Positions 1-4,377 of a stretch of 64,000 nucleotides of DNA are shown piece after piece (positions within the stretch are counted from its first letter, which is position 1; every line of letters begins with the position of its first letter). Under the pieces are notes generated by a model. It was not told the origin of the DNA. It ran no database searches and worked only from the letters and a program-made list of their open reading frames with translations. Location: NCBI GenBank assembly GCA_905477785.1, contig CAJQGR010000010.1, positions 1 through 64,000 on the forward strand, read 5' to 3'. The DNA comes from an uncultured Hellea sp. (GTDB lineage: Bacteria; Pseudomonadota; Alphaproteobacteria; Caulobacterales; Maricaulaceae). The position numbers were made by a program, and so were the translations under genes.

Positions 1-2
1 TT

Positions 3-2045
3 TTTTACTGTTCTTTGATTTTATTAAGGCAAAGGGGGGTTGGTGTTGGTGTATTTCGTTTATTTGATAAGTTTCACATCTTGGCAATTCATGGCCTAGT
101 AATGCCAATCACTAGATTTATTGGAGTTATAATAGCGGTACATTATGATGCCGGTTTTATTGGATTCTTGATAGCTTGGTATATAGGCTCAATGGCTGCC
201 TATTTCTTTCTTCCTATGATGGCCATATTGGAATTGAAATCCCGTGGTTTATTAATGTTAGTGGTACGTTCAAAGTCGCCTTTGTTTAAAGCTAGAAGTG
301 GTTTGTGGAAATTTATGATTAAGTCCAATATAGATTCTACCCTCTCAGCTTCAACAACACATTTACCAGCACTAATGGTGATGGGTATGTTTGGCTCTAC
401 ATGGGTGGCTATTTATAGAATTGCTGAAGAAGCTGCCAAATTATTATCCGAAGGTTTTAAGCTCCTTGACCAGGTTATTTATCCCGAGCTTGCTAAAATG
501 ATAAGCCTTGGAGAAGCAGAAAAAATATGGGGGTTAGTTAAAAAGACAGCGATATCGTTATTAAGTTTTGGTCTTGTGACCGCATTTATAGTAAAAGTAG
601 GAGGGCCTGATTTATTAAGTATGGTTTTCTCTGTTGACTATGCAATGGCTGCACCACTTGCTTCACTTTTAATTCTTGCTGCTGCCATAACAGGTATAGC
701 GGCTCCATTATACCCAGTGTTATATGCAACGGATAAACCTGAAAGGGCTATATACGCTCGTGGAACCGGAGTTATAGTCTATATAACAGCTTTTATACTT
801 TTGAGTTTTTCAATTGGAAAGATGGCTCCTGGTTGGGCGTCAATTCTTAGTAATATTACATCCGTGGGATTTTTGGTTTATTTAACTCAAGGTACGTTAA
901 AAAGTGTTGTAGAAAACAAGCAGTCAAAATCTAATGATTGCGTTAATAAACAGGTAAATTTTATTGGAGGCTCTAAGGTAAAGTTGTGGGGGATGCCTTT
1001 ATTGAAATGGCAGCAGCGTGCAATGGACAAGGCTATTTCAGATAATAACCCAGGGGTTATTTATTTGCAGTTAAATTGGATATTATCATCCAGTCTCGCA
1101 AAGGCTTTTGCTGCTGACAATAAAATGGCGTTAATTTCTGGAAATAAAATCATTGGTACTAATGGGATAGATAGAGAGTCAGCAGTTGAAATAATTGGAA
1201 AGAGTTCAGATATTTTAATAGGAACAGACATCGACGGATATAGGCCAGAAGATTTGGATGATGGCTATAATAAGGCACTTAGAAAAACAGAACATCCCTA
1301 TGCCCTTGATATCAATAAGACATCACCATCTGAAATCATGCGTCGACAATTTTCTAGCTCGTATAAAGGTGTTACTGATTTTGTGACTAAGTGGTTTTGG
1401 CCTATTCCTGCTTTTTATGTCACGCGTTTATTTGCCACTTTAAGGTTCTCACCAAATATGGTTACCACCATAGGGCTTCTATTAATGTTTGCTGCTTTGT
1501 ATTATTTTTGGCTTGGTGAGTGGATGTTAGGTTTTCTGACTGGTTGGCTCATGACATTTTTAGATACTGTTGATGGCAAGTTAGCCCGCACAACTATGAC
1601 ATATTCATGGTGGGGTAATATTTATGACCATGGTATAGATTTAATTCATCCACCGTTCTGGTATTGGGCATGGTTTGTTGGTTTAGGTGGAGTATTTACA
1701 TGGCAAAATTTACAATCCGATTATATGAGTTTAACTTTAGTGGCTATTTTAGTTGGATACGTCATCGATAGAATTATTGAAGGTATTTTTATAGCTAAGC
1801 ATGGATTTCACATTCATGTGTGGAAACCTATCAATTCTTTTATGAGGTATATTACTGCGCGTAGAAATCCAAATATGTTTATATTCATGATAGGTATATG
1901 TTTTTTACCATTGTTTCCTTATGCAGGTAGATGGGGTTTCTATGCTGTTGGAATTTGGACTTGGTTATGTATATTATTTAATTTTATTGTTTTATTCTAT
2001 AGTATGTTTTTGCCAAAGCCAGCACAAAGCTGGATGAGTAAATAA
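3..2045 (+). CDS. Partial (open at the window's 5' edge): Wzx/MATE-like polysaccharide or lipid flippase fused to a C-terminal CDP-alcohol phosphotransferase (DIPP-synthase-like)
   Basis: Frame is open to the window edge. N-terminal half is multi-TM and flippase-like. C-terminal half has the exact CDP-AP motif DTVDGKLARTTMTYSWWGNIYDHGID (D-x2-DG-x2-AR-x8-G-x3-D-x3-D). Confidence 0.8.
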   Translation, partial: FYCSLILLRQRGVGVGVFRLFDKFHILAIHGLVMPITRFIGVIIAVHYDAGFIGFLIAWYIGSMAAYFFLPMMAILELKSRGLLMLVVRSKSPLFKARSGLWKFMIKSNIDSTLSASTTHLPALMVMGMFGSTWVAIYRIAEEAAKLLSEGFKLLDQVIYPELAKMISLGEAEKIWGLVKKTAISLLSFGLVTAFIVKVGGPDLLSMVFSVDYAMAAPLASLLILAAAITGIAAPLYPVLYATDKPERAIYARGTGVIVYITAFILLSFSIGKMAPGWASILSNITSVGFLVYLTQGTLKSVVENKQSKSNDCVNKQVNFIGGSKVKLWGMPLLKWQQRAMDKAISDNNPGVIYLQLNWILSSSLAKAFAADNKMALISGNKIIGTNGIDRESAVEIIGKSSDILIGTDIDGYRPEDLDDGYNKALRKTEHPYALDINKTSPSEIMRRQFSSSYKGVTDFVTKWFWPIPAFYVTRLFATLRFSPNMVTTIGLLLMFAALYYFWLGEWMLGFLTGWLMTFLDTVDGKLARTTMTYSWWGNIYDHGIDLIHPPFWYWAWFVGLGGVFTWQNLQSDYMSLTLVAILVGYVIDRIIEGIFIAKHGFHIHVWKPINSFMRYITARRNPNMFIFMIGICFLPLFPYAGRWGFYAVGIWTWLCILFNFIVLFYSMFLPKPAQSWMSK

Positions 2046-2713
2046 TGAAGAATATAGTAATATTTGATCTTGATTACACGCTGACTAAAAAAGGTACATG
2101 GGGGAGATTTGTTTTTCATACTGTTAAATATAAACCATGGATATGGTTACCTTTAATTTTATCAGCTGGTTTTGCGCAGTGGCGTTATAAAGCTGGCTAT
2201 ACGCCAAGAATATCCGTTAAGCAAAGTATGATGAAATGGAGTATGGTTGGGTGTTCAAAGATTAAAATGAAAAAATTAGCCATTGAATTTGCTAGGAATG
2301 AAGTTCTCCAAGGTTTACGACCAGGAGCTATTGAGATACTAAATTGTCATAAAGCATTAGGGGACACAATAATTATAGCCAGTGCCGCTGTTGATTTACT
2401 AGTTAAGCCTATAGCTGAGTTATTAAAAATTGATTATTGGGTTGCGACTAATATGAGTTGGACAAATGGTGTTTTAAGAAAAGAATTTGCATCTAAGAAT
2501 TGTTATGGACCTGAAAAACTACAAAGAGTAAAATTGTTGCTTCAGGATACCTTAATGTTTAATAGGAGTGAAATTTTAATTAAAATGTATACTGATAGTA
2601 TCTCAGATATTGATATATTGAGGTTTAGTGACTTTGGTGTTGCAGTAAACCCAGATAGAAAACTTGCTAAAGCTGCTATTGACGAAAACTTTGAAATAGT
2701 TAATTGGAACTGA
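2045..2713 (+). CDS. HAD-superfamily hydrolase (SerB/PGP-like phosphatase)
   Basis: N-terminal DLDYTLT motif, later IIASAA and YTDSISDIDIL motifs; start overlaps the stop of the preceding gene. Confidence 0.8.
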   Translation: MKNIVIFDLDYTLTKKGTWGRFVFHTVKYKPWIWLPLILSAGFAQWRYKAGYTPRISVKQSMMKWSMVGCSKIKMKKLAIEFARNEVLQGLRPGAIEILNCHKALGDTIIIASAAVDLLVKPIAELLKIDYWVATNMSWTNGVLRKEFASKNCYGPEKLQRVKLLLQDTLMFNRSEILIKMYTDSISDIDILRFSDFGVAVNPDRKLAKAAIDENFEIVNWN

Positions 2714-2737: not shown

Positions 2738-3496
2738 ATGCATGCTATAATACTTTCTGCAGGGCGCGGTTCAAGGTTGTTACCTTTAACAACTGATTTA
2801 CCAAAATGTTTGCTTCCAGTTGGGTTGTCATCTGTTCTTGCTCTACAAATTGATACTTTGTTAAAACAAGGGATAGAAAAAATAACGATTGTTACAGGAT
2901 TTAACTCTCATCTTGTGGAGGCGGAAGTATCGTCAGGTAAATTTGGTAAAGATGTGAACATTCTTTACAATCCTTTCTATCAAGTGGCAGATAACCTAGC
3001 ATCTTGTTGGATGGCACGACAAGAAATGAATAATGACTTCTTACTTATTAATGGTGACACACTATTTAGCCCAGAATTATTGATTAAAGTATTAGCAGCT
3101 CCAGCTAGAGATATATCAGTAACGATTGATCAAAAAGAGCACTATGATGGTGATGATATGAAGGTGTCATTGAATGGTTCGCAACTTACTGCGATAGGTA
3201 AAACATTGCTTCCACAAAAAACTCAAGGGGAATCCATAGGTATGTTACGTTTTATGGATAAAGGTCCAGATATATTTAAGAACGAGTTAGAGCGTTTGAT
3301 GAGAATGGAAGAAGGTACTAAAAGTTGGTTTTTATCGGCTATAAACGGCTTAGCGCAATCAGAGCAAACAATTGATACTACCAACATTAAGGGAGAAACT
3401 TGGTCTGAACTTGATACGCCTGAAGATTATGAAATTTGTTTGGATCTATTTGGCGGCAGTGCGATGGCAAGAAAGAGACTAGCAGCTATAAAGTAG
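2738..3496 (+). CDS. NTP transferase family protein (sugar/polyol-phosphate nucleotidyltransferase)
   Basis: MHAIILSAGRGSRLLPLTTDLPKCLLPVG signature; LLINGDTLF motif. Confidence 0.85.
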   Translation: MHAIILSAGRGSRLLPLTTDLPKCLLPVGLSSVLALQIDTLLKQGIEKITIVTGFNSHLVEAEVSSGKFGKDVNILYNPFYQVADNLASCWMARQEMNNDFLLINGDTLFSPELLIKVLAAPARDISVTIDQKEHYDGDDMKVSLNGSQLTAIGKTLLPQKTQGESIGMLRFMDKGPDIFKNELERLMRMEEGTKSWFLSAINGLAQSEQTIDTTNIKGETWSELDTPEDYEICLDLFGGSAMARKRLAAIK

Positions 3497-3567: not shown

Positions 3568-4377
3568 ATGAAAAAAGTTGTTGAAAAGCCAAAGCATTTG
3601 AAGAATCCCAGAAGGGCTTTTGTAAAAAAGAATGGTAAAAAGCTTGTAAGGAAAATTGCAAGCTTCCAAGCTAAGCAGTCTTTAGTTCCAGACACACCCA
3701 AAATTGATAATAAATACTTTCCATTTCTAAAGAACTTCACAGATAACTGGCTAGATATTAAAGCGGAAGTATTGGAAGTTTTGAAATACAAAGAAGTAAT
3801 CCCTGGTTTTCAAGATATTTCACCAGATCAATATCGATTGGCGACAGAAAATAATTGGAAGACTTTTGTTCTATTTGGATTTGGTAAACGGCTGGCTAAA
3901 AATGCATCTCTCGCTCCTAAGACATCAAAATTGCTTGAAGGTGTTCCAAACCTTCAGACTGCTATGTTTTCAATTTTGGCACCTGGGTACCATATACCGG
4001 CTCACAGTGGAGTAACTAAAGGTATATTAAGGTCTCATATTGGTTTGATAATTCCATCAGATCGTGAGAATTGCCGCATTCGTGTTGATAATACTATAAC
4101 ACCTTGGAAAGAGGGTGAAATCTTTGTATTCGACGATACCTATGAACATGAAGTTTGGAATGATACAGATCAAGAACGAGTTATTCTTTTGTTTGATTTT
4201 GATAGACCTATGAAATTTTGGGGTCGCTTATTAAACACTACATTCCTTCAAATAATGAAATTTACTGCCTTTTACCAAGACCCAAAAAAAAACTTAAAGT
4301 CTGCTGAAGACAGACTTGAGGCTGCTATCCGTAAAGTCGATGCAAACATAGAGGCAATGAGTGACCCTGCGCCATGA
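3568..4377 (+). CDS. Aspartyl/asparaginyl beta-hydroxylase family dioxygenase (LpxO-like)
   Basis: PAHSGVTKGILRSHIGLIIP and GEIFVFDDTYEHEVWNDTDQERVILLFDFDRP motifs of the family. Confidence 0.8.
   Translation: MKKVVEKPKHLKNPRRAFVKKNGKKLVRKIASFQAKQSLVPDTPKIDNKYFPFLKNFTDNWLDIKAEVLEVLKYKEVIPGFQDISPDQYRLATENNWKTFVLFGFGKRLAKNASLAPKTSKLLEGVPNLQTAMFSILAPGYHIPAHSGVTKGILRSHIGLIIPSDRENCRIRVDNTITPWKEGEIFVFDDTYEHEVWNDTDQERVILLFDFDRPMKFWGRLLNTTFLQIMKFTAFYQDPKKNLKSAEDRLEAAIRKVDANIEAMSDPAP

Follow-up and report, generated by a model that had tools for sequence, protein, structure and literature searches.

Single-gene fusion of a predicted flippase and a CDP-alcohol phosphotransferase in a putative sphingolipid locus of Hellea and its relatives

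The fusion gene and its surroundings

The DNA analyzed here (the window) is a 64,000-nucleotide stretch from the genome of an uncultured Hellea sp. (G000) and covers contig C10 from its first base to 64 kb. Its first gene is an open reading frame on the plus strand (positions 3-2045; 680 codons, zero internal stops), which bears out the original prediction of one uninterrupted frame joining a flippase-like region to a CDP-alcohol phosphotransferase (CDP-AP). The frame is open at its 5' end, since the window starts at base 1 of the contig. Window positions 1-127 recur as a 127-bp exact copy at the end of contig C45 of the same genome, an overlap of the sort left by an assembler at a graph break. 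The upstream extension to the true start that had been suggested was made by joining C45 to C10, whereupon the frame stays open back to an ATG at L003:11989 and yields a protein of ~829 aa, of which the window holds the last 680 codons. The junction between the flippase and enzyme halves lies ~900 bp inside C10, and the contig break therefore cannot be the source of the fusion. The features of the gene and its neighbors are as follows.

L003:11989-12435 on contig C45: flippase residues 1-149, in the frame joined via the overlap
3..908, plus strand: C-terminal two thirds of the predicted flippase half, MOP-type, corresponding to residues ~150-450 of the ~829-aa protein (Foldseek matches to MurJ/WzxE)
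909..944, plus strand: hypervariable tether that connects the two halves (12 aa in this protein; pLDDT <50 in the AlphaFold2 model)
945..1367, plus strand: N-terminal alpha/beta domain of the putative CpgA half, cytidylyltransferase-like without the GxGxR/PK motif (precedent in AF2299, PMC4634129)
1368..2045, plus strand: predicted six-TM CDP-alcohol phosphotransferase of the CpgA type, with the stop codon included (Pfam, homologue alignment, AlphaFold2/Foldseek)
1563..1640, plus strand: catalytic signature DTVDGKLAR...GNIYDHGID (sequence, alignment)
2045..2713, plus strand: HAD-IB phosphatase, the next operon gene, whose start overlaps the fusion stop by 1 bp
2738..3496, plus strand: CpgD-type CTP:phosphoglycerate cytidylyltransferase (profile and residue comparison)
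3568..4377, plus strand: OlsC/LpxO-like lipid hydroxylase of the aspartyl beta-hydroxylase fold, conserved in the locus

On the minus strand of C45 lie a cpgC-like gene, a gene for a diacylglycerol-kinase-family protein in the place of cpgB, and genes for LptG and LptF. Next, toward the fusion, come genes for DUF2141, for a GNAT protein in the position of ceramide synthase and for a MobA-like NTP transferase, and downstream of the fusion the window continues with the HAD phosphatase, the CpgD-like cytidylyltransferase and the lipid hydroxylase. The order in G000 thus reads cpgC, cpgB, lptG2, lptF2 / DUF2141, cerS, CC_1153-like NTP transferase, fusion, HAD, cpgD, hydroxylase; aasR-cerR-acpR-spt are also present, on contig C72, and the genome has two LptF/LptG pairs.

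Judged by gene content, this locus appears to correspond to the C. crescentus phosphosphingolipid gene set CC_1152-CC_1168, in which CpgA (CC_1159) and a "potential flippase" (CC_1166) are encoded separately (PMC11324152). CC_1159 is a CDP-AP required for the ceramide-diphosphoglycerate CPG2 (PMC11324152), and CpgD makes CDP-glycerate, the proposed CpgA substrate (PMC12275187). The C. crescentus phosphoesterase CC_1158 may have been replaced here by the HAD gene. Genome G054, from the same order as the window, carries the genes for the flippase, an AMP-ligase, an epimerase, a PLP enzyme, cpgC, a kinase and cpgA, followed further on by lptF2, lptG2, cerS, the NTP transferase and cpgD. This matches the published gene order, with separate genes for the homologues of the flippase and of CpgA, and orthology to CC_1159 and CC_1166 was judged from gene order and from these G054 homologues.

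Both the neighborhood of CpgA (cerS, cpgB, cpgC, lptF2/G2, cpgD) and the co-occurrence of cpgD tie the enzyme to this pathway, with G010 as the exception. Among 34 genomes, all those tested that have CpgA, G010 excepted, also had CpgD, against 0 of 11 genomes that have the flippase only. Residues that contact substrate in CpgD structures (PMC13228409) are conserved in the CpgD of the window wherever spacing allows them to be placed.

Predicted folds and catalytic residues of the two halves

An AlphaFold2 model was made on an 88%-identical complete homologue (pLDDT 77, pTM 0.54). It has a 12-TM N-terminal half by helix count, a disordered tether at residues 454-464 and then the enzyme half, so the AlphaFold check of the domain edges that had been proposed separates the two halves at the tether; their relative placement is uncertain at this pTM. 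Foldseek searches of the first half against the PDB returned MurJ (E 3.5e-7), WzxE (TMt 0.74) and also MATE transporters, all of the MOP superfamily. As modeled, the N-terminal half has a MOP-type flippase fold, and the flippase-like multi-TM region read from the sequence at the outset is upheld by these structural matches. MurJ and WzxE share this fold at 14-16% identity, but they carry no enzyme domain and act on isoprenoid-linked substrates, whereas the fusion carries a CDP-AP half.

The window protein has no match to the Pfam flippase models; PF01943 (Polysacc_synt) is matched by two of 15 fused homologues and by the unfused G054 homologue (E 1.3e-11). The latter stands at the place corresponding to CC_1166 and is 29% identical to the flippase half, but it is a separate gene on the opposite strand, ~6 kb from cpgA, whereas the two are fused here. 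The even TM count would place both flippase ends on one side of the membrane, which is consistent with a cytosolic enzyme domain.

The enzyme half matches Pfam CDP-OH_P_transf (PF01066) with E=2.2e-6 and 28.6 bits against a cut-off of 22. Its signature DxxDGxxAR...GxxxDxxxD is complete, the P(D/N)xx(T/S) element is present as PNMVT, and the eight signature residues are invariant in alignments with 15 fused and 14 mostly unfused homologues, in agreement with the earlier claim of a CDP-AP domain with all catalytic residues. A sequence search of the PDB gave weak CDP-AP matches only, and a PHROGs search gave no match. Modeled alone, the enzyme half reached a pLDDT of 89.5, and Foldseek matched both of its domains to PIP synthase constructs, AF2299 (TMt 0.72) and IPCT-DIPPS, with 4o6n, 4o6m and 4mnd among the entries matched.

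The enzyme half would thus have the architecture of AF2299 and DIPP synthase, namely six TMs and an N-terminal cytidylyltransferase-like domain, the possession of which makes those two enzymes unusual among CDP-APs (PMC4634129). The six-TM CDP-AP fold is shared with AF2299, the A. fulgidus IPCT-DIPPS and bacterial PIP synthases, and the cytosolic N-terminal domain with AF2299 and DIPPS, but identity to the enzyme half is 13%, the locus offers no inositol context and the curated family cut-offs are not reached. The DIPP-synthase likeness first suggested for the linker and pre-catalytic region therefore stands for fold and architecture but is not supported for the inositol product. What had been called a linker is really a hypervariable tether of 12-32 aa followed by an N-terminal domain also found in the enzyme's unfused relatives. 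Six-TM CDP-APs are reported with soluble acceptors, and those with lipid acceptors usually have three to four extra TMs (PMC4634129); use of ceramide phosphoglycerate (CPG), a lipid, as acceptor would therefore be unusual for this fold.

Likeness to C. crescentus CpgA (CC_1159/CCNA_01217) lies in the gene neighborhood, the CDP-AP signature and the partner cpgD. The CpgA-type homologue of G054 is 39% identical to the enzyme half, but is a stand-alone protein of 371 aa, in contrast to the enzyme fused behind a 12-TM flippase here.

In the G000 genome, the fusion is the only CDP-OH_P_transf match over the Pfam cut-off, the other match being weak and short (contig C48). This suggests that the usual PgsA and PssA are divergent in, or missing from, the G000 MAG.

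Distribution and history of the fusion

The single-frame fusion is present in 26 of the 137 genomes of the window's family (the Hellea/Litorimonas group), spread over four genera with 9, 2, 10 and 5 genomes. It is found in the isolates Hellea balneolensis DSM 19091 and Litorimonas cladophorae KCTC 23968, and many Hellea/Caulobacterales MAGs carry it as well, as a scan of named genomes showed. The search for the same fusion in other genomes was therefore successful, and neither objection anticipated with the original prediction holds: its presence in isolates and many MAGs speaks against a frameshift or assembly join, and its being common to 26 genomes against two genes that are always separate elsewhere. 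An assembly artefact is ruled out by the fused genomes, two isolates included, and by the distance of the junction from the contig edge. The flippase-CDP-AP fusion is real and is a single gene.

Outside the family, both halves occurred in one open frame in none of 398 genomes of the order and 385 of the class, where the two genes are separate and often adjoin in the same gene order. Apparent frames of 975-1009 codons over both halves in G417 and G181 were followed up in G181, where the gap holds stop codons, and a single "TAG" match in G224 consists of two adjacent genes.

Among relatives, the tether varies between 12 and 32 aa and is hypervariable in sequence, and every fused genome examined keeps the frame open. 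The complete genome G010 has one in-frame TAA, followed immediately by an ATG, between the halves (L063 9171-11729), both being otherwise intact, while in G014 and in Robiginitomaculum MAGs the halves adjoin in different frames. Placed on a tree built from both halves, the fused state takes three changes, which may reflect a single fusion followed by two splits or more than one fusion. Adjacency of the flippase gene and cpgA without fusion recurs across families, and the neighboring gene order is older than the fusion.

Other arrangements of the two genes were observed. G140 (L117 9605-13139) has a second flippase-CpgA-CpgD set away from the main sphingolipid locus, with a 4-bp overlap between flippase and CpgA, and a second flippase-CpgA pair arranged alike lies near a contig end, away from the main locus, in G141. 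The G140 set resembles a mobile module of three genes. Two other families of the order (L059 and L125; L126 and L127 by spacing) have an apparent antisense gene, seemingly HIT-like from a reading of the reverse frame, between flippase and CpgA.

Proposed function and alternative readings

We propose, with a probability of roughly two in three, that the gene is a CpgA of the C. crescentus type fused to the C-terminus of a CC_1166-type putative phosphosphingolipid flippase. Assignment to the CPG2 pathway is strongly indicated by the genes of the locus, and we infer flipping by the N-terminal half from its fold and context. In this pathway, Spt, CerS and CerR would make ceramide, CpgB would phosphorylate it, CpgC and others would make CPG, and CpgD would combine CTP and phosphoglycerate into CDP-glycerate. 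With CDP-glycerate as donor, the C-terminal half would add phosphoglycerate to CPG on the cytosolic side, giving CPG2, and the tethered 12-TM MOP half would accept this anionic product in the inner leaflet and flip it to the periplasmic leaflet, from which LptF2/LptG2 would lift it to the outer membrane. Direct use of CDP-glycerate by CpgA, the direction of flipping and the hand-over to the flippase are presumed. The activities of CpgB and CpgD and the genetic need for CpgA come from the literature; the fusion, folds, catalytic residues, locus and CpgD co-occurrence come from this analysis. A stronger version, tentative and on balance doubtful, is an integrated synthesis-and-flip machine in which the CDP-AP half feeds new CPG2 straight into the MOP half and on to a dedicated LptF2/LptG2 exporter, the CC_1166 family being the missing bacterial sphingolipid flippase and the flippase helping a six-TM CDP-AP to hold its lipid acceptor.

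It is improbable, in our estimate, that the substrate of the flippase half is a different lipid of the pathway (oxidised ceramide before the periplasmic CerR, or CPG) and that the fusion does no more than set the stoichiometry or membrane co-localisation of two operon neighbors. Eleven genomes that lack CpgA and CpgD retain the flippase, a weak point of the main reading, since the substrate therefore cannot be CPG2 only; this fits a general phosphosphingolipid flippase; in the four flippase-only loci that were read, it stands with cerS, cpgB, cpgC and lptF2/G2. Since CerR is periplasmic (PMC11087976), some ceramide precursor must cross the membrane, and the adjoining gene order predates the fusion. 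However, the second flippase travels with cpgA off the main locus in G140 and G141 (with cpgD too in G140), a specific tie to CpgA, and the fusion has persisted through four genera.

That the frame is fused on DNA while the halves work apart, through proteolysis of the tether or internal initiation, is very improbable. The disorder and variability of the tether, together with the TAA-ATG split at the same point in G010, would agree with it, but the frame stays open through 12-32 variable codons, and an unsystematic look at the tether revealed no conserved internal start with a ribosome-binding site.

Fusion of a flippase to a synthase of an inositol-phosphate lipid or polyol, the reading first suggested, is scarcely credible and was rejected: fold similarity to PIP synthase, AF2299 and IPCT-DIPPS is accompanied by weak NCBIfam matches, but these fall far below the curated cut-offs (PIP synthase, 40.1 vs 170 bits; archaetidylinositol-phosphate synthase, 41.7 vs 180; Thermococcales IPCT-DIPPS, 23.9 vs 580), the neighborhood is one of ceramide and phosphoglycerate genes, the partner cytidylyltransferase matches CpgD, and inositol-1-phosphate synthase was found in 0 of 10 genomes of the genus by a search that finds it in six well-known control genomes, though inositol could also be imported.

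Bacterial sphingolipid flippases and transporters were stated to be unidentified in 2024, and anionic sphingolipids aid survival of C. crescentus without LPS (PMC11087976). The fusion bears on the identity of the flippase because the predicted last headgroup enzyme is joined to the MOP flippase of the same locus; it is a strong guilt-by-fusion pointer to a sphingolipid flippase candidate and offers one gene to test. MprF, lysyl-phosphatidylglycerol synthase and flippase, likewise makes and flips a polar lipid in one polypeptide (PMC8131360, PMC2774229), but its domains are unrelated, its product is of opposite charge and it has no CDP-alcohol chemistry; the MprF flippase and aminoacyl-tRNA-dependent synthase domains have no Pfam match in the fusion protein. 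If the proposed function is true, single chains that both make and flip a lipid would exist in a second form, unrelated to MprF. A limited text search of the literature for a flippase-CDP-AP fusion found nothing relevant. The parts of the pathway are known and a synthase-plus-flippase precedent exists in MprF; the arrangement, a conserved single-chain fusion, is new.

Sphingolipid loci of relatives differ in further genes. G010 has no CpgD match at E<=1e-15, reflecting either pathway decay or another CDP-alcohol. G033, without CpgA and CpgD, has an ATP-grasp enzyme and a second NTP transferase in that place (L064 13220-15036), which suggests a different sphingolipid headgroup. A CMAS-family (cyclopropane synthase-like) gene, not present in the window, occurs in the loci of relatives (L065 16040-17254, L063 7070-8263, L062 5485-6810, L066 8936-10150). 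C. crescentus CPG species may bear a hydroxyl (PMC11324152), and the OlsC/LpxO-like protein, with homologues at 67-85% identity across the sphingolipid loci of the family (L062, L064, L065, L066, L068 and L120-L123), is a candidate hydroxylase of the sphingolipid acyl chain.
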